In this document: positions 1-5,038 of the stretch, piece after piece
Layout of the letters: every line of letters starts with the position of its first letter
How positions within the stretch are numbered: the stretch's first letter is position 1
Source of the DNA: Candidatus Gottesmanbacteria bacterium
GTDB lineage: Bacteria; Patescibacteriota; Microgenomatia; UBA10105; UBA927
Length of the DNA stretch: 34,034 nucleotides
Reading direction: 5' to 3'
Assembly: GCA_023245335.1 (NCBI GenBank)
Contig: JAHFKK010000001.1
Span: 1,064,019-1,098,052 of the forward strand
Notes under the pieces: model-generated
What the model was told of the DNA's origin: nothing
Databases searched by the model: none
What the model saw: the letters and a program-made list of their open reading frames with translations, nothing else
Program-made: the position numbers and the translations under genes

Positions 1-120
1 TTGGCCTTCTGCTACCGGTCCAGCCGACAAGTTGATATTCACCGCATGTGCTGTTAAGGCGCCGGCGAAAAATATGCCTGCGACCACTACGAGAATTAGG
101 ACAATCCTTCCGACAGTCAT
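1..120 (-). CDS. Exported protein, N-terminal fragment (runs off window)
   Basis: The minus strand reads ATG at 120 with GAGAGG five nt upstream, then an N-terminus MTVGRIVLILVVVAGIFFAG that looks like a signal peptide or membrane anchor. It is followed by TAHAVNINLSAGPVAEGQ, where the window ends. The start lies one nt beyond the stop of the lipoprotein gene upstream (122-1009), so it is the next cistron of the same operon. The reading frame is open to position 1 and the C-terminus is not visible. I cannot name a family. An alternative is a single-pass membrane protein rather than a cleaved precursor; THA|VNI would be an acceptable signal-peptidase I site. Confidence 0.7.
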   Translation of the reverse strand, partial: MTVGRIVLILVVVAGIFFAGALTAHAVNINLSAGPVAEGQ

Positions 121-121
121 G

Positions 122-1009
122 TTAACCTCTCATCCGTGGGTATCTTTGATTACGATCTCCTGAATGCACCTCTTCGGCGACAAATCTGCCAAAGCCTGGA
201 GACACATCAGTATTATGCCGCCGGTCAAAGCCTTGCAACATTGCGAGAATGACGCTTATAGGAATTAATTGACCTTTGGTATATTGCCGTAACTGATTGC
301 CTATTTCCGGTCTGAATTCAGATGGCACTTGGTGAGCTTGCATATACTTCACTAACCATTTCGCCAACGTTTCGACCGGTATGCCATCTGATGTACCTGG
401 AGCAGGCAAAGTCTGTTGAGCTTGACCCTGTTTCATTAACATCGCGGCATAGGCTTGACCGATTTGGACTGTCACCTTGGCTATTGCCCGTTGCGGAGCG
501 CTTATTCCCCAAAATGCAACGTAAAGCAATATGGCTAAAATTAACCCTCCGATTGTACCGAAGAGTAGCCATGGCCAATATCCAGGTGTTCCGGACTGTC
601 CGCTTTTGCCAGAAACCGATGCCCCGTTGACATATTGAATGTACAACTTACCGGGACAACCAAGGACGCCTCCGCATACAGGATTCCATCCTAATGGCAT
701 ATCACGAACAAACACACCGTCTTCCGTAAACTGTTTCCAGCCGGTAAACGGTGTTGCCGTCGGGGATGGTGTAACGGACGGTGTAGGTGATTGCGTCGGC
801 GTTTCTGTCGGCTCTAACGTTGGCGTTCTCGTTGGCAAATCCGTACCTGCAGCAATTAAAGTATTCGCTGCATTGGCCACGACGGTTGAACCCCAGGCTG
901 TTTGCGTCACTGCATATTGCGTGGCCATAGCATCCTGTTGTTCCTGCGTAGCGCATCCTGCCAAAAGAACTGCAAGGAGAATGAGCGGTCCGTACCTAAT
1001 GAGATTCAC
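122..1009 (-). CDS. Lipoprotein with PT-rich linker and internal membrane segment
   Basis: A 295-residue protein. A basic N-terminus and hydrophobic stretch end in the lipobox LAGC (Cys19), so it should be lipidated on the outer face of the membrane. Residues about 56-87 are a Pro/Thr/Ser linker (repeated TPT/SPT). A short Cys-containing segment (NPVCGGVLGCPG) follows, then one strong transmembrane helix at about 145-170 (WPWLLFGTIGGLILAILLYV), and a soluble C-terminal part of about 125 residues. A lipid anchor plus a later helix would place the C-terminal part in the cytoplasm. The start is GTG at 1009, chosen because AGGAGG lies five nt upstream. It is in the operon between a 193-residue membrane protein and the gene that leaves the window. 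The linker style resembles Chloroflexi and Microgenomates surface proteins. Function unknown. Confidence 0.75.
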   Translation of the reverse strand: MNLIRYGPLILLAVLLAGCATQEQQDAMATQYAVTQTAWGSTVVANAANTLIAAGTDLPTRTPTLEPTETPTQSPTPSVTPSPTATPFTGWKQFTEDGVFVRDMPLGWNPVCGGVLGCPGKLYIQYVNGASVSGKSGQSGTPGYWPWLLFGTIGGLILAILLYVAFWGISAPQRAIAKVTVQIGQAYAAMLMKQGQAQQTLPAPGTSDGIPVETLAKWLVKYMQAHQVPSEFRPEIGNQLRQYTKGQLIPISVILAMLQGFDRRHNTDVSPGFGRFVAEEVHSGDRNQRYPRMRG

Positions 1010-1020
1010 CTTCTCCTCCT

Positions 1021-1602
1021 TTATCCAATCGCCAGATAGTAAATGGCCGTCAACAGCAGGACTATATTGGCAAAAAACGGCAACAGATGTGTTCCCTGTT
1101 CTTCCAATGAGTCAGGAAATGCCACTGTTATAACTTGCACAAAACCAAATAACGCAAGCAAGGCCGTTTTTGGTTGACCAATAAGCCACTCTGTTATAAA
1201 AAACGCAATCCATATAAGCATGGCAAGAACATAGGTCCACACAGATTTATTACCGATGACATACTTAGGGACTATATTGCCATGCCCATCATCCTCAGTT
1301 TCAATGACCTCTTCTGCAGATGATGTTTGTGGATGCTCGTAACGATCACCGCGCAGCAAAAATCCTGCATACGTCAACGCAAACGCGACGTAGAACCCAG
1401 TGAGAATAACCAAGGTCCTTTCACTCTGAGGATTCGCGTATAGTGCGGGAGCAAACCCAGATAAACCTCGGAAAGCCACCGCCAGAAAAAAAACCAATAT
1501 TCCCCAGAGCTTCGTCATCTGACGTAGGAGGTTTATGCCCCGTCCTGTCGCTAGCTGCAATTGATATTGCAGGTCAAACAGTTGCGTAAAATATTCTCGC
1601 AT
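1021..1602 (-). CDS. Multi-pass membrane protein of unknown function
   Basis: A 193-residue protein starting MREYFTQLFDLQYQLQ. I chose ATG 1602 rather than the longer open frame to 1695 because the longer form would overlap the SPFH gene, which ends at 1613, and because GTGAGG precedes 1602. About four or five hydrophobic segments are visible: LWGILVFFLAVAFRGLSGF, TLVILTGFYVAFALTYAGFL, VWTYVLAMLIWIAFFITEWL, TALLALFGFVQVITVAF and FFANIVLLLTAIYYLAIG. An acidic loop (SSAEEVIETEDDGHG) sits between the second and third. It lies 10 nt downstream of the SPFH gene and 11 nt upstream of the lipoprotein gene, so the three are probably co-translated and may form one membrane complex (inference). No family recognised. 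Confidence 0.72.
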   Translation of the reverse strand: MREYFTQLFDLQYQLQLATGRGINLLRQMTKLWGILVFFLAVAFRGLSGFAPALYANPQSERTLVILTGFYVAFALTYAGFLLRGDRYEHPQTSSAEEVIETEDDGHGNIVPKYVIGNKSVWTYVLAMLIWIAFFITEWLIGQPKTALLALFGFVQVITVAFPDSLEEQGTHLLPFFANIVLLLTAIYYLAIG

Positions 1603-1612
1603 GTCAGCCTCA

Positions 1613-2512
1613 CTATGATTTAATCCCGACGAGATCGAGCAGATCCTTACCAGCTTGGACAAATGTATTCCAGCCGGCAGTGCGCACTGCTTCAATCCAT
1701 TCGAGTTTCACATATAGAGCTTCGCCAAGGTGATCCGCAGCCTTTTTACGACCTTCAGCCTGAATACGCTCCGCAGTAGCATCTGCTTCTGCGCCGATGA
1801 CTCTATTCGCTGCGTCGTACATGGATTTCGGGTAGTTGATATCCATGATTCCGAACGCGCGGATTTCAACACCCCATTCCATTAGTAGCGAATTAGTCTG
1901 AATGAATCTCAGTATCTTTCGTTCGATATTTGGAAACTGTTTTTGTCCTTTAAGGGTATCAACGGTTTCTCCATGAAAACCTCGAACGACTTCACGCTGG
2001 ATCATATCGTCACTTTCTATTTCTGGATCACGGTCTGGCACGGAATTCAGAGTCAAATATGGATCTCTGAACCGTATGGCTCGTACATACCGCACCTTGA
2101 CGTCCGCTGGCTTATCACCGCCGAGCGGAATTGTAATTACACGAACGCGTTTTAGATCGAATGTTGCTGCGCGTCGTATTCGCTCTATGGGCCAGAGTAT
2201 GTGAATCGGTCCTTCCCCATGCGTGTCTTTTAACGCCTTTGCGAGACGGTAAACTACCGCAACATATTTATTGGGGACGAAATACCAGTTCATCGGTAAC
2301 AGGACATCGTAGATCACAAAAAGCCCTATCACCAAAGCGAACCAAACGGTCCACTGCATATCTGACGTCGGAGCAAGGACAATCAACGTAGCGAAAACAT
2401 ACACCACGCTGAAAAATGCCCAAATGCCTACACCGATTATGTTAATGAGCGGATGTCGAGTGCCCATCGGTTTTGGCGTTGATGCTTTTACGGTCGGTTT
2501 CTTTTCCATCAT
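1613..2512 (-). CDS. SPFH/band-7 domain membrane protein
   Basis: A 299-residue protein. Two hydrophobic segments at about residues 24-48 and 53-73 are followed by a band-7-type domain: 'VPNKYVAVVYRLAKAL...GPIHILWPIERI', then beta-rich stretches and 'ERKILRFIQTNSLLMEWGVEIRAFGIMDINYP', the usual SPFH pattern ending in a strand with 'WGVEI.....I.DI..P'. A C-terminal helix rich in Ala, Glu and Lys (ANRVIGAEADATAERIQAEG) follows, as in prohibitin/HflK/stomatin relatives. Such proteins form membrane-bound rings or scaffolds and often work with proteases or channel partners; the partner here is unknown. SD is AGGAAGGTGA before ATG 2512; a second ATG at 2509 is equally possible. The gene is central in the seven-gene operon, and its neighbours are small membrane proteins rather than the NfeD protease usually found next to bacterial SPFH genes. 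Confidence 0.8.
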   Translation of the reverse strand: MMEKKPTVKASTPKPMGTRHPLINIIGVGIWAFFSVVYVFATLIVLAPTSDMQWTVWFALVIGLFVIYDVLLPMNWYFVPNKYVAVVYRLAKALKDTHGEGPIHILWPIERIRRAATFDLKRVRVITIPLGGDKPADVKVRYVRAIRFRDPYLTLNSVPDRDPEIESDDMIQREVVRGFHGETVDTLKGQKQFPNIERKILRFIQTNSLLMEWGVEIRAFGIMDINYPKSMYDAANRVIGAEADATAERIQAEGRKKAADHLGEALYVKLEWIEAVRTAGWNTFVQAGKDLLDLVGIKS

Positions 2513-2525
2513 TCACCTTCCTCGC

Positions 2526-3269
2526 CTAAAAAACGGCCCGGCCTTCATGAACGGGCTCTTCCCATTGTTCTGCGTCCGCTTCTTCACCGACTTCTTCTTG
2601 TGAATCTTTAATCCCCAACAGGTCGCACACGGTCGATTTAGCGGCTTGCAGTAGATTCTGCGGAACGAGCCCATCCTTTATGGCGTTACGTATGGCTTCA
2701 GCCGTTGACGCTCGAGCGGTACGGTCATTTGTCACCGACTGTAAACCAAGTTGCTCCAGTAACTTTGCCGTATTAACGGTGACATCTCCTTTGCTACTCG
2801 TCAGCTTAATTGCGCTGATGATCTGCTCCGTAACCGAGGGTGTTATATGACCGGATTGTATTGCTTCCGCAATATTTTCATGCGTTTGTTCTTGACCATG
2901 GGACTTATTCCCCAATTGATAAAGTATCGCCCCAAAAATCACAATCCAAATCAAAGCACCGGCCGTCGCACCCAACCAGGGCGACCATACAGGCCAATCG
3001 CTGGGCATCATCTCTGACCACTGGTAGTAGCCAAATACCATGACCATACTAAAATTCACTAAGAGTAATGCACCCCGAACGAACCTGTTCTGGTTATTGG
3101 CAATCACATACAGTGTGAACATGGCATACACCAATGCAGCCATCCCAAACAAACTAAACTTTTGGGATACGAACAACCGGAGAAGCCAGGCGACAAGCAG
3201 CGACAATGCTATCGGAACAGTCAGCCAGAAGCCAAAAGTTCCAACTGTTTGTTGTCGGGAACCAGCCAT
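2526..3269 (-). CDS. Membrane protein with acidic cytoplasmic tail
   Basis: A 247-residue protein starting MAGSRQQTVGTFGFWL. The longer open frame to 3392 has an Arg-rich out-of-character start and overlaps the previous gene; ATG 3269 has AGGAGG seven nt upstream and is preferred. About four or five transmembrane helices occupy residues 10-130, followed by a soluble helical region with two similar segments (ENIAEAIQSGHITPSVTEQI and TAEAIRNAIKDGLVPQNLLQ), perhaps a duplicated small helical motif, and an acidic end (SQEEVGEEADAEQWEEP). It starts one nt after the previous cistron stops and ends 13 nt before the SPFH gene. No family recognised. Several short TMs with a helical tail would suit a partner of the SPFH scaffold (inference). 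Confidence 0.72.
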   Translation of the reverse strand: MAGSRQQTVGTFGFWLTVPIALSLLVAWLLRLFVSQKFSLFGMAALVYAMFTLYVIANNQNRFVRGALLLVNFSMVMVFGYYQWSEMMPSDWPVWSPWLGATAGALIWIVIFGAILYQLGNKSHGQEQTHENIAEAIQSGHITPSVTEQIISAIKLTSSKGDVTVNTAKLLEQLGLQSVTNDRTARASTAEAIRNAIKDGLVPQNLLQAAKSTVCDLLGIKDSQEEVGEEADAEQWEEPVHEGRAVF

Positions 3270-3270
3270 G

Positions 3271-3588
3271 TCATGCCTCCTCTTCGGTCTCACCCGTGTT
3301 ACTGGCCTCTGCCGCGATCTTCTCTGCCTCACCACTGAGCTGAGCAGCAATCTTCTCGGCTTCGGCGAGGATCGCGTTTGCCGCCTCATCAAATTCGATC
3401 GTCAATTCACTCTTACCTTCAGCGATAGCCATCGAACCAAACAATGTCTTCACGACGGCGCGTACCGGATCAATTAGGTGAATTCTTTTGATTGGTTTGT
3501 GACCCGCCAATCCTAAAAGCTCAGCGAAGCCGCTGGCGATCGAACCGAATAAAGGTTGTCTTTCCGTATGAATAGGTTGATCTGCCAT
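3271..3588 (-). CDS. Small Ala/Glu-rich protein of unknown function
   Basis: A 105-residue protein, MADQPIHTERQPLFGSIASG at the N-terminus. No transmembrane segment is obvious. The C-terminal 45 residues are an amphipathic Ala/Glu-rich helix with a repeated EAEKIAA unit (AEAEKIAAQLSGEAEKIAAEAS), so a coiled coil or oligomerisation helix is likely. ATG 3588 directly follows GTG 3591; AAGGTG lies four nt upstream of the ATG. It is the second gene of the operon, 304 nt downstream of the basic peptide gene and one nt before the next membrane protein. Function unknown. Confidence 0.68.
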   Translation of the reverse strand: MADQPIHTERQPLFGSIASGFAELLGLAGHKPIKRIHLIDPVRAVVKTLFGSMAIAEGKSELTIEFDEAANAILAEAEKIAAQLSGEAEKIAAEASNTGETEEEA

Positions 3589-3892
3589 CACACACCTTGC
3601 CTTTCGTGTTAGTTATTTCATGGTTAATTAGCATGCAACAACCTGGCAAAAATTCTATCGTTATGACTTCCGACTTGTCAGGACTAGTCTAAAACTAGCT
3701 TCGGACATCCAGACAGAATTTTCGCTCCTTGCAGAAAAGCCTTTTTCAGCCACTCTCCTTTCGTTGCGCATTTAACCGACACAGGATTGTGCCGGGTGGA
3801 AATAAACAGACTCGACTGCATTCGACAGCCGGTCTGACAATTTGTGGGCCAGACCCGTAGGTCTGGGTCTGGCTTTTAAGCAGGAGGTGTTC
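3589..3892. other. Intergenic region between basic peptide gene and operon body
   Basis: About 300 nt with no credible open frame. It contains a small hairpin CTAGT-CTAAA-ACTAG at 3684-3698 and the strong hairpin described separately at 3848-3873. The second operon promoter could lie here, but I see no convincing -35/-10 pair. Confidence 0.5.
3848..3877 (+). terminator. Hairpin with short T tract (possible terminator on plus strand)
   Basis: GCCAGACCC (3848-3856) pairs perfectly with GGGTCTGGC (3865-3873) and is followed by TTTT on the plus strand. On the minus strand, the direction of the neighbouring genes, no U-tract follows the stem, so there it would act as a structured element just after the 41-residue gene rather than a classical terminator. 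Confidence 0.4.
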
Positions 3893-4018
3893 TTAACGCT
3901 TTGCAGGATCGCGTCTCGGTTTGCCTTTACGTTTGATAACGTTGATCTTTTTTCGTTTCACAACGACGACCTTTGGCTTACGTGCTTCGCGATCCGATTT
4001 CGGTGTTGTCAATGACAT
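3893..4018 (-). CDS. Very basic 41-residue peptide
   Basis: MSLTTPKSDREARKPKVVVV then KRKKINVIKRKGKPRRDPAKR: about 17 of 41 residues are Lys or Arg and there is no hydrophobic helix. The start at 4018 is fixed by an excellent SD (AGGAGGTG, five nt before the ATG), stronger than most in the window, which is the main reason to believe the gene is real. It is the first cistron on the left minus-strand operon side, with a hairpin at 3848-3873 after it. A nucleic-acid-binding or ribosome-associated role would fit the charge, but this is inference from composition only. Confidence 0.6.
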   Translation of the reverse strand: MSLTTPKSDREARKPKVVVVKRKKINVIKRKGKPRRDPAKR

Positions 4019-4291
4019 GACACACCTCCTCTTTAAGATACCAACAGACTTCCGTGTGGTTGTCTGCATGGTTTCATAAGTAGCCCGTCCAGACTTGCGT
4101 CGTGGATGGGAATTCATGGGGAGAGTCCACGAATATATACGAGTATTCAATTGTTTGAATCCACTAATTCTTTTCTTTCTCTCCTGATATTTGCATCGGT
4201 TATCCCCCAAAACATTGGAAATCCCCCGATATGTTGTTATCAGATCTAACTCTGATCTCTTTCTGACTTTCTAACATTATTTAATTCCCTC

Positions 4292-4350
4292 ATAGATATA
4301 TAGACAAAAGAAACGACCATTGTGGTCATCTCCTCAATCTATATATCTAT
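4292..4350. repeat. Nested perfect inverted repeat
   Basis: ATAGATATATAGA (4292-4304) and TCTATATATCTAT (4338-4350) are exact reverse complements. In the 33-nt loop lies a second small palindrome, GACCA-TTG-TGGTC (4315-4327). No U-tract follows on either strand, so this is not an ordinary terminator. It could be a cruciform, a protein-binding site or an RNA hairpin. Confidence 0.75.
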
Positions 4351-4630
4351 GCGGCTTACTTATGATGCACTACTTCCATGCGTATTTGAAAGGAGTTTTG
4401 CCTTCCGTACCGATCTCATACCTCTAGGAGCCACAAAAGACCGCTATCACCTATGATCTAACGTTTTGACCACAGAGACACTGTCTCACTGACGCCTTTC
4501 TCGTTTTGTAACACCCCTCACCTATAACTCTTTATTCAATTTCCTTCGTTCACTTGTTAACGTGCGCTTTGAGACAACCCGAACAAACCACCTCGATTAT
4601 GAGGCTATTCAGGCTTGCCAAAGCACTAAA

Positions 4631-4743
4631 CGAACACAATTCGTCTACAGGTGACGCTTTGTCACCCTGACAAACTCTTGGCCTTTATGGGGCCAGGGGC
4701 GCGGATCTTCCTGTCCAAAAGATCCGCGCCTCCAACCCCTTTT
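4631..4743. ncRNA. Candidate structured RNA or hairpin array
   Basis: Four stems follow one another: CGAA/TTCG (4631-4643), GGTGAC/GTCACC (4650-4666), TTGGCC/GGCCAG (about 4679-4696) and a perfect 12-bp stem GGCGCGGATCTT/AAGATCCGCGCC (4698-4709 with 4719-4730). A short TTTT tract lies at 4740-4743 on the plus strand, 9 nt after the last stem. I do not recognise RNase P, tmRNA, SRP or 6S consensus elements. Strand and ends are uncertain; plus is favoured only by the T tract. Confidence 0.35.
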
Positions 4744-4816
4744 GTGATCTGCCATATCTTCCCTCTCGCCTCATCCCACTATTCGTAGCGCGGCTCGAGG
4801 AGCGATAATCAGCGGA

Positions 4817-4869
4817 TTGATGGTTAGATAAGCCCGCGAATAAGGATTCGCTTGCCAACTAACCATCAA
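4817..4869. repeat. Inverted repeat with inner stem
   Basis: TTGATGGTTAG (4817-4827) is the exact reverse complement of CTAACCATCAA (4859-4869). An inner stem GCGAAT-AAGG-ATTCGC (4836-4851) extends it into a long two-part hairpin. A-tract on the plus strand after the right arm, so no U-tract for a plus-strand terminator; on the minus strand the U-tract precedes the stem. Possible RNA structure or binding site. Confidence 0.7.
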
Positions 4870-4924
4870 AAAAAGCTCAGTTAAGAGCCTTGTACCGCCA
4901 AGCGGATTTATGTATGTATAGATC

Positions 4925-4991
4925 GGACAGATCTAGACAGCCGGACAGACCGGACAGCTTTCTCGGCAGGGACCAGACAGATCTCGGACAG
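4925..4991 (+). repeat. Cluster of GGACAG short direct repeats
   Basis: GGACAG occurs at 4925-4930, 4943-4948, 4952-4957 and 4986-4991, with related AGACAG at 4935-4940 and 4975-4980. A longer unit, GACAGATCT followed by .GACAG, is present twice (starting 4926 and 4976, 50 bp apart). It lies 60-130 nt upstream of the wzy-like start codon. Confidence 0.6.
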
Positions 4992-5038
4992 GACATATCC
5001 TATAGCATATTTTGGGTCAAAAATCAACCTAATCATGG

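Follow-up and report, generated by a model that had tools for sequence, protein, structure and literature searches.

A species-variable membrane-protein operon in Candidatus Gottesmanbacteria with a boxA-like element and a predicted leader-trailer helix like those of rRNA precursors

The pairing of a boxA site with a leader-trailer helix is usually taken as a hallmark of ribosomal RNA (rRNA) synthesis. In Escherichia coli, boxA recruits NusB-S10 to the polymerase and prevents Rho termination, and it is thought to retain the leader close to the exit channel while the trailer is still being made; the helix that forms is then a substrate for RNase III (PMC10250234). boxA also acts on some mRNAs, including the suhB 5' untranslated region of E. 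coli and relatives, and putative boxA sites precede other genes; these are NusB/S10-type sites outside rRNA (PMC5725501). Large structured RNA can be genetically tied to membrane proteins, as in the OLE RNA ribonucleoprotein (PMC12265935), and SPFH proteins (stomatin/slipin, HflK/C, flotillin) are known from membrane microdomains. Here, we analyze a seven-gene operon at the left end of a 34,034-nucleotide stretch (the window) of a Candidatus Gottesmanbacteria genome (GenBank assembly GCA_023245335.1, contig JAHFKK010000001.1), which lies on a 1.2-Mb contig (G000:C12) in a 1.55-Mb genome. A boxA-like element and complementary leader and trailer arms flank this operon. We consider it probable that its genes, set A below, are one variant of a species-variable membrane or surface assembly that is expressed from an rRNA-precursor-like transcript.

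Our comparisons covered seven genomes of the genus (G000, which holds the window, through G006) and G008, which belongs to another genus within the family. An earlier note on this DNA had described seven adjacent minus-strand genes at positions 1-4018, and a check of the open reading frames (ORFs) and starts bears this out: the intergenic gaps are 1-16 nt, with one of 304 nt. The transcript unit, however, runs past 1-4018 on both sides. The last gene (P0008) is truncated by the window edge; its full product has 224 aa with a second transmembrane (TM) segment, and the gene stops some 550 bp beyond the left window edge, at L014:14465. The operon is flanked by mreB and an O-antigen-ligase-like gene, which are also close together in G001 and G003-G006; in G002 they lie on separate contigs, both of which end inside the interval. 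A minus-strand membrane-protein cluster occupies the mreB-ligase interval in all seven genus members.

These clusters represent three largely unrelated gene sets. G006 carries set A like G000, with all seven genes in the same order and the same place, so the earlier treatment of the genes as one unit holds up against the chance that they are scattered. The operon proteins of these two genomes share about 24-42% identity (Table 1), against 92% for MreB. Set B (G002, G004, and G005) encodes a lipoprotein of the set A architecture, a 300-aa TM protein, small TM proteins, a 213-aa protein with four TM segments, and a 490-aa multi-TM protein. Set C (G001 and G003) encodes a large M23 cell-wall hydrolase with TM segments, plus an SLT domain in G003, and membrane proteins. 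A small basic first gene like that of P0006 is present in most relatives (G001, G004, G006, and G008). On a tree of MreB, P0010, and the ligase, the three sets are scattered, which requires at least four changes by our own parsimony count, with one tree node at 61% bootstrap. Because of this scatter, the gene set seems either to have been exchanged between species or to have been lost repeatedly from a richer ancestor. The locus is syntenic in G008 (ligase - cluster - mreB - PBP2 - dprA - topA), and with this discovery we withdrew our first conclusion that it is restricted to the genus.

At the nucleotide level, a short conserved element precedes every cluster, and there is a structured element downstream. 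Roughly 980 nt 5' of the first gene is a conserved candidate promoter of the TTGAC-17-TATAGG type, with a better -35 in the relatives (TTGACT-17-TATAGG) than in the window. Read in the direction of the operon, the upstream element is GCAC(A/G)TTAACAAGTGAACGAAGGAAAT; G002, G004, and G006 show single-base differences. It contains the boxA-like form GCAC(A/G)TTAACA, exactly one element per genome in 7/7 genus members, and its second half is in all genomes an arm of 10-16 nt that begins right after boxA. A class-wide search allowing one mismatch matched only the seven genus genomes and G008, where the element sits at the same locus, 5' of a gene for a 48-aa basic peptide. The complement of the arm follows 2.2-7.2 kb downstream; in sets A and C it comes directly behind the last gene, and in set B behind the pair of genes for the lipoprotein and the exported protein.

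Complementary arms flank the segment in all seven genus genomes and in G008, with only a 10-bp helix plus loop in G002. When the 150 nt 3' of the stop codon were shuffled with dinucleotides kept, the observed helix was reached by 0, 0, 33, 0, 6, 11, and 2 of 2000 shuffles in G000 to G006, respectively. Over the eight sequences, 89.8% of cells are paired (37-52% in slid controls) and four of the 16 helix pairs show compensatory changes, a result reached by 2/500 shuffles. The count leans somewhat towards the helix, as arms were extracted by hand and one bulged G002 base was omitted. For example, in G008 (arm AGTGAATGAAGGAA, partner TTCCTTCATTCACT) a C-G pair has become U-A through changes on both sides. 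The pairing also recurs within the locus: the extra boxA-like sites in G002-G006 and G008 have partners as well. In set B, another boxA (exact TGCTCTTTAACA in G002) lies 5' of the cluster's second half; the arm belonging to it, TCCTGATTGT, has its pairing partner, ACAATCAGGA, at the 3' end. Further units with a partner occur in G003, G005, and G006, two of them with 18-19-bp arms, and in G008 an M23-type membrane protein lies with its neighbor inside a second unit (TCGCTCTTTAACA, arm AAGACAGACTAC). A scan of the window and all loci covered 73 boxA-like sites; boxA-anchored helices were confined to this locus and to rRNA genes, while a reversed-sequence control yielded three. For a boxA look-alike within the SPFH gene, no partner exceeded the level of shuffles.

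The same arrangement is found around rRNA genes of these genomes. The stand-alone 16S gene is preceded by CTTTAACAATCGAATGGTGATAGG and followed by CCTATCACCATTCGGTTGTTAAAG, that is, boxA and an arm directly after it that is complementary to the trailer. The 23S leaders carry TGCTCTTTAACA in three genomes, and the G004 23S leader, GCACATTAACAAGTCAACGAATG, is nearly identical to the operon element. Overall, GCACATTAACA precedes both the operon and the G004 23S gene, and CTTTAACA/CATTAACA precede 16S and 23S in the genus. The operon thus resembles an rRNA operon leader in its boxA, the arm directly after it, the complementary arm directly after the segment, the occurrence once per segment, and the covariation. 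It differs in enclosing protein genes with strong Shine-Dalgarno (SD) sites over up to 7.2 kb, in its shorter arms, and in having no rRNA inside; a search of the loci gave no Rfam match between the arms, which enclose ORFs instead. The boxA sites on mRNAs serve short leader regulation, unlike the sites here, which each have a long-range partner and can form several units in series. Our literature search found no report of a trailer partner for a boxA on mRNAs, and none in the open literature of boxA plus a leader-trailer helix around protein genes.

Swapping of gene sets at a fixed site, with arms flanking the set and an IS200-like transposase gene beside the G001 set, could also point to DNA-level exchange. 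The arms would then be the inverted DNA repeats that bound an exchange cassette or a mobile element, the sets would be swapped by recombination between flanking repeats, and RNA pairing would be incidental. We regard this as unlikely: a boxA-like site common to rRNA leaders is joined to the 5' arm in every case, and the arms differ among species yet stay complementary. Moreover, additional, unrelated arm pairs occur in G005 and G006, every pair with a boxA of its own, the first unit of set B covers only part of the set, and no transposase or integrase was seen in the G000 interval.

The untranslated parts of the transcript are strongly folded relative to shuffles, with z of -9.9 in the trailer (leader segments and spacer in Table 1). 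Coding windows have a mean z of -0.83 vs -0.05 in control genes. In the trailer element, matching hairpins occur in G000 and G006 (set A) and in G003 (set C), with double changes in 14/64 pairs, and a GNRA-like hairpin is conserved in sets A and C. Together with the first G008 unit, a 0.58-kb closed RNA with only the 48-aa basic ORF, in which the end-closing helix is part of the predicted minimum-energy fold (z -6.6), this could be taken to mean that the untranslated RNA is the main product. It would be an rRNA-like structured RNA or ribonucleoprotein with the small basic peptide bound and tied to the membrane by proteins, like OLE RNA in idea. However, no Rfam family matches (no covariance match at gathering score), the trailer element was not found in set B, and the G000 unit, unlike OLE RNA, is mostly protein-coding mRNA, with near-ordinary folding, so we hold this explanation to be improbable. 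A broader version, an rRNA-like ribonucleoprotein at the membrane built of boxA-antiterminated, end-clamped structural RNAs with bound basic peptide and exchanged membrane proteins as anchors or cargo, seems to us equally doubtful.

Translation signals set the operon apart from its surroundings. Measured against the genus's own 16S tail, the seven starts have a mean anti-SD duplex energy of -10.5 kcal/mol, and the 25 other window ORFs -1.5 (first start, P = 5e-5) or -4.5 kcal/mol (best allowed start, P = 1.7e-4), in agreement with the earlier note's strong SD at each start, unlike most other window genes. The operons of relatives have strong SDs as well. The earlier note had suggested different ancestry or a need for high expression. 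The former fits less well: the genus has the locus at a fixed place, and the operon's G+C (0.46-0.50) is no different from the rest of the window (0.45-0.53), so composition hints at no foreign ancestry. High expression is the better fit, given the rRNA-type boxA and leader-trailer helix, and the expression level would follow from these features.

Strong SDs unlike host genes, the M23 and SLT domains of set C, and fast divergence might also be expected of a domesticated or defective virus or satellite, in which virion genes (SD-led, with a nut-like boxA, a small basic protein, and hydrolases) are kept at one site. Against this, seven protein queries found no relative in IMG/VR, nor was the boxA element found there. 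P0001 gave only weak slipin matches in phage and plasmid collections (four plasmids) and had no relatives in phages, viral contigs, or genome_contigs. No replication, packaging, or integration gene was recognized, and the locus is a fixed feature of all genus members and of a second genus. The leader-trailer helix is an rRNA trait, and we know of none from phages. We consider a viral origin improbable.

Returning to expression from an rRNA-precursor-like transcript, we envisage that a sigma70-type promoter starts the long leader and that boxA, by analogy with rRNA operons, would recruit NusB/S10-type antitermination factors to RNA polymerase. The polymerase could then read fast through the highly structured untranslated RNA. 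After the last gene, the leader arm would pair with the trailer arm and close the mRNA into a loop, and the closed helix is probably an RNase III substrate and mRNA stabilizer, as in pre-16S/23S. The strong SD sites would give high translation. Because transcription would be fast and termination-resistant, the mRNA closed, and translation led by strong SDs, an abundant product is predicted. The lipid-anchored TM protein, the multi-pass proteins, and the SPFH scaffold may come together as an assembly of the cytoplasmic membrane of which a small part faces outward. The protein set would be exchanged between species, with promoter, boxA, and helix kept.

At the protein level, Band_7 in P0001 (40.6 bits vs a cut-off of 23.6) is the sole operon domain that Pfam recognizes above cut-off, and its G006 counterpart matches more strongly (8.1e-19, 68.8 bits against the same cut-off). 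The P0001 profile also matches stomatin structures at 1e-10. P0001 is thus like known SPFH proteins in its Band_7/SPFH domain, but it is very divergent, has two N-terminal TM segments, and lacks an NfeD/FtsH/HflK-C partner: no operon gene matched such a family in Pfam or NCBIfam above cut-off, which upholds the earlier note on the absence of known SPFH associates. Sequence searches for P0001 orthologs in 374 class genomes gave only generic slipins, so by sequence search alone the operon would look like an orphan. P0004 has no Pfam family above cut-off. Matches to DUF1440, L19e, BrxC, DotU, and OAD_gamma were set aside as below cut-offs, and PADLOC matched no anti-phage defense model. The lipoprotein has homologs in set A, in set B, and in a single further family (G184); its profile matches in other class genomes were Thr/Pro-rich noise. 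The AlphaFold2 model of P0003 has a predicted local distance difference test (pLDDT) score of 56 overall and 73-81 in the C-terminal helices, with no fold match at E<=0.001, and an SPFH model was discarded as unusable (pLDDT 38).

Altogether, this suggests a membrane complex with lipid-anchored outward domains and multi-pass proteins, joined in set A by an SPFH scaffold. The membrane assembly around an SPFH protein proposed in the earlier note is retained in part: an assembly still seems to us a reasonable inference, but SPFH is not its core, because sets B and C contain none. The operon is also one of three interchangeable sets at a conserved locus, and the constant feature of that locus is its RNA architecture; the earlier note had missed both points.

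Several observations weigh against one assembly with a shared mode of expression. At 10-16 bp, and interrupted by an internal loop in G002, the arms fall short of the >17 bp that E. coli pre-16S needs (PMC10250234). The trailer-element structure comes from three sequences only. Set C is without both SPFH and lipoprotein, and hhalign found no homology between sets beyond the lipoprotein. Because of this near absence of detectable protein homology, sets A, B, and C may be several systems sharing one expression slot rather than one assembly with variants. If our preferred reading is true, an operon that repeats the whole arrangement unit by unit would show that bacteria can move protein genes into the rRNA expression mode, and it offers a test of the helix's role where no ribosome is made. 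Its products, from unknown families plus one SPFH protein, may be among the most abundant, fast-diverging membrane machines of an uncultured bacterial group.

Table 1. Features of the operon and its transcript (window positions unless stated; identities are to the G006 counterparts).
Feature	Position	Strand	Evidence or remarks
Candidate promoter TTGATT-17-TATAGG	4999..5027	-	consensus match, conserved in genus upstream alignment
Untranslated leader before boxA, strongly folded	4566..4998	-	z -7.5 over 4560-5000; 200-nt windows z -3.6 to -5.8
boxA-like site GCACGTTAACA (GCACATTAACA in relatives)	4555..4565	-	one boxA/arm element per genome, 7/7 genus members
5' (leader) arm AGTGAACGAAGGAAAT of long-range helix	4539..4554	-	helix score 34.6, 0/2000 shuffles; covariation
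Folded untranslated leader, from boxA to first gene	4019..4538	-	z -5.8 over 4020-4570
41-aa basic peptide P0006, first gene	3893..4018	-	ORF; SD -13.6 kcal/mol
Untranslated spacer, 304 nt, strongly folded	3589..3892	-	fold z -6.7
EAEKIAA protein P0005, 105 aa	3271..3588	-	ORF; 28% identity
Four-TM membrane protein P0004, 247 aa	2526..3269	-	26% identity
SPFH/Band_7 protein P0001, 298 aa, two N-terminal TMs	1613..2509	-	Pfam Band_7 3.7e-10; 24% identity
Multi-pass membrane protein (4-5 TM) P0002, 193 aa	1021..1602	-	27% identity
Lipoprotein P0003, 295 aa	122..1009	-	lipobox, Thr/Pro-rich linker, small beta domain, TM, helical C-terminal domain; 41% identity
Exported/TM protein P0008, start only in window	1..120	-	42% identity over first 71 aa
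3' arm GTTTCTTTCGTTCACT	L014 ~14390-14375, left of window, ~5.2 kb from 5' arm		complementary to AGTGAACGAAGGAAAT

Some further observations concern the locus and its relatives. P0010 (L014:13394-12525, left of the window) has 289 aa and no Pfam family; its gene lies beside the locus in 7/7 genus members and is absent from other genera of the family, though the adjacent mreB is about 90% conserved. In G001, the transposase gene (IS200/RAYT-like; L038, oriented 3316-2642) directly adjoins the trailer element. The exported protein gene of G006 is split in two frames (L040 oriented 5718-5503 and 5457-5068), reflecting a frameshift or an assembly error. Extra boxA units of 0.6-0.8 kb in G006 (L040 oriented 3539) and G005 (L042 oriented 3734), with 18-19-bp arms (AAACGGGAGAATAAG...), enclose small TM proteins only. 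In G184, a lipoprotein of like architecture (L074:2368-1754; Thr/Pro linker, GxPGK, WPW, TM; profile E 2.7e-20) adjoins an unknown 365-aa gene close to a contig end, and it may be a distant relative of the assembly.

The 16S genes are separate from the 23S genes (L088, L089, L090, L087, and L091-L094), and in several species insertions are present in both, with 16S matches of 1755-2106 bp vs 1508-1511 in G006 and G004, and 23S matches of 3.2-3.6 kb. About 150-250 nt 5' of 16S (L085-L090), a conserved strong hairpin followed by a T-run, e.g. CCCCGCAATGGCGGGGCTTTTTTT, lies between promoter and boxA within the rRNA leader, looking like a terminator or attenuator.

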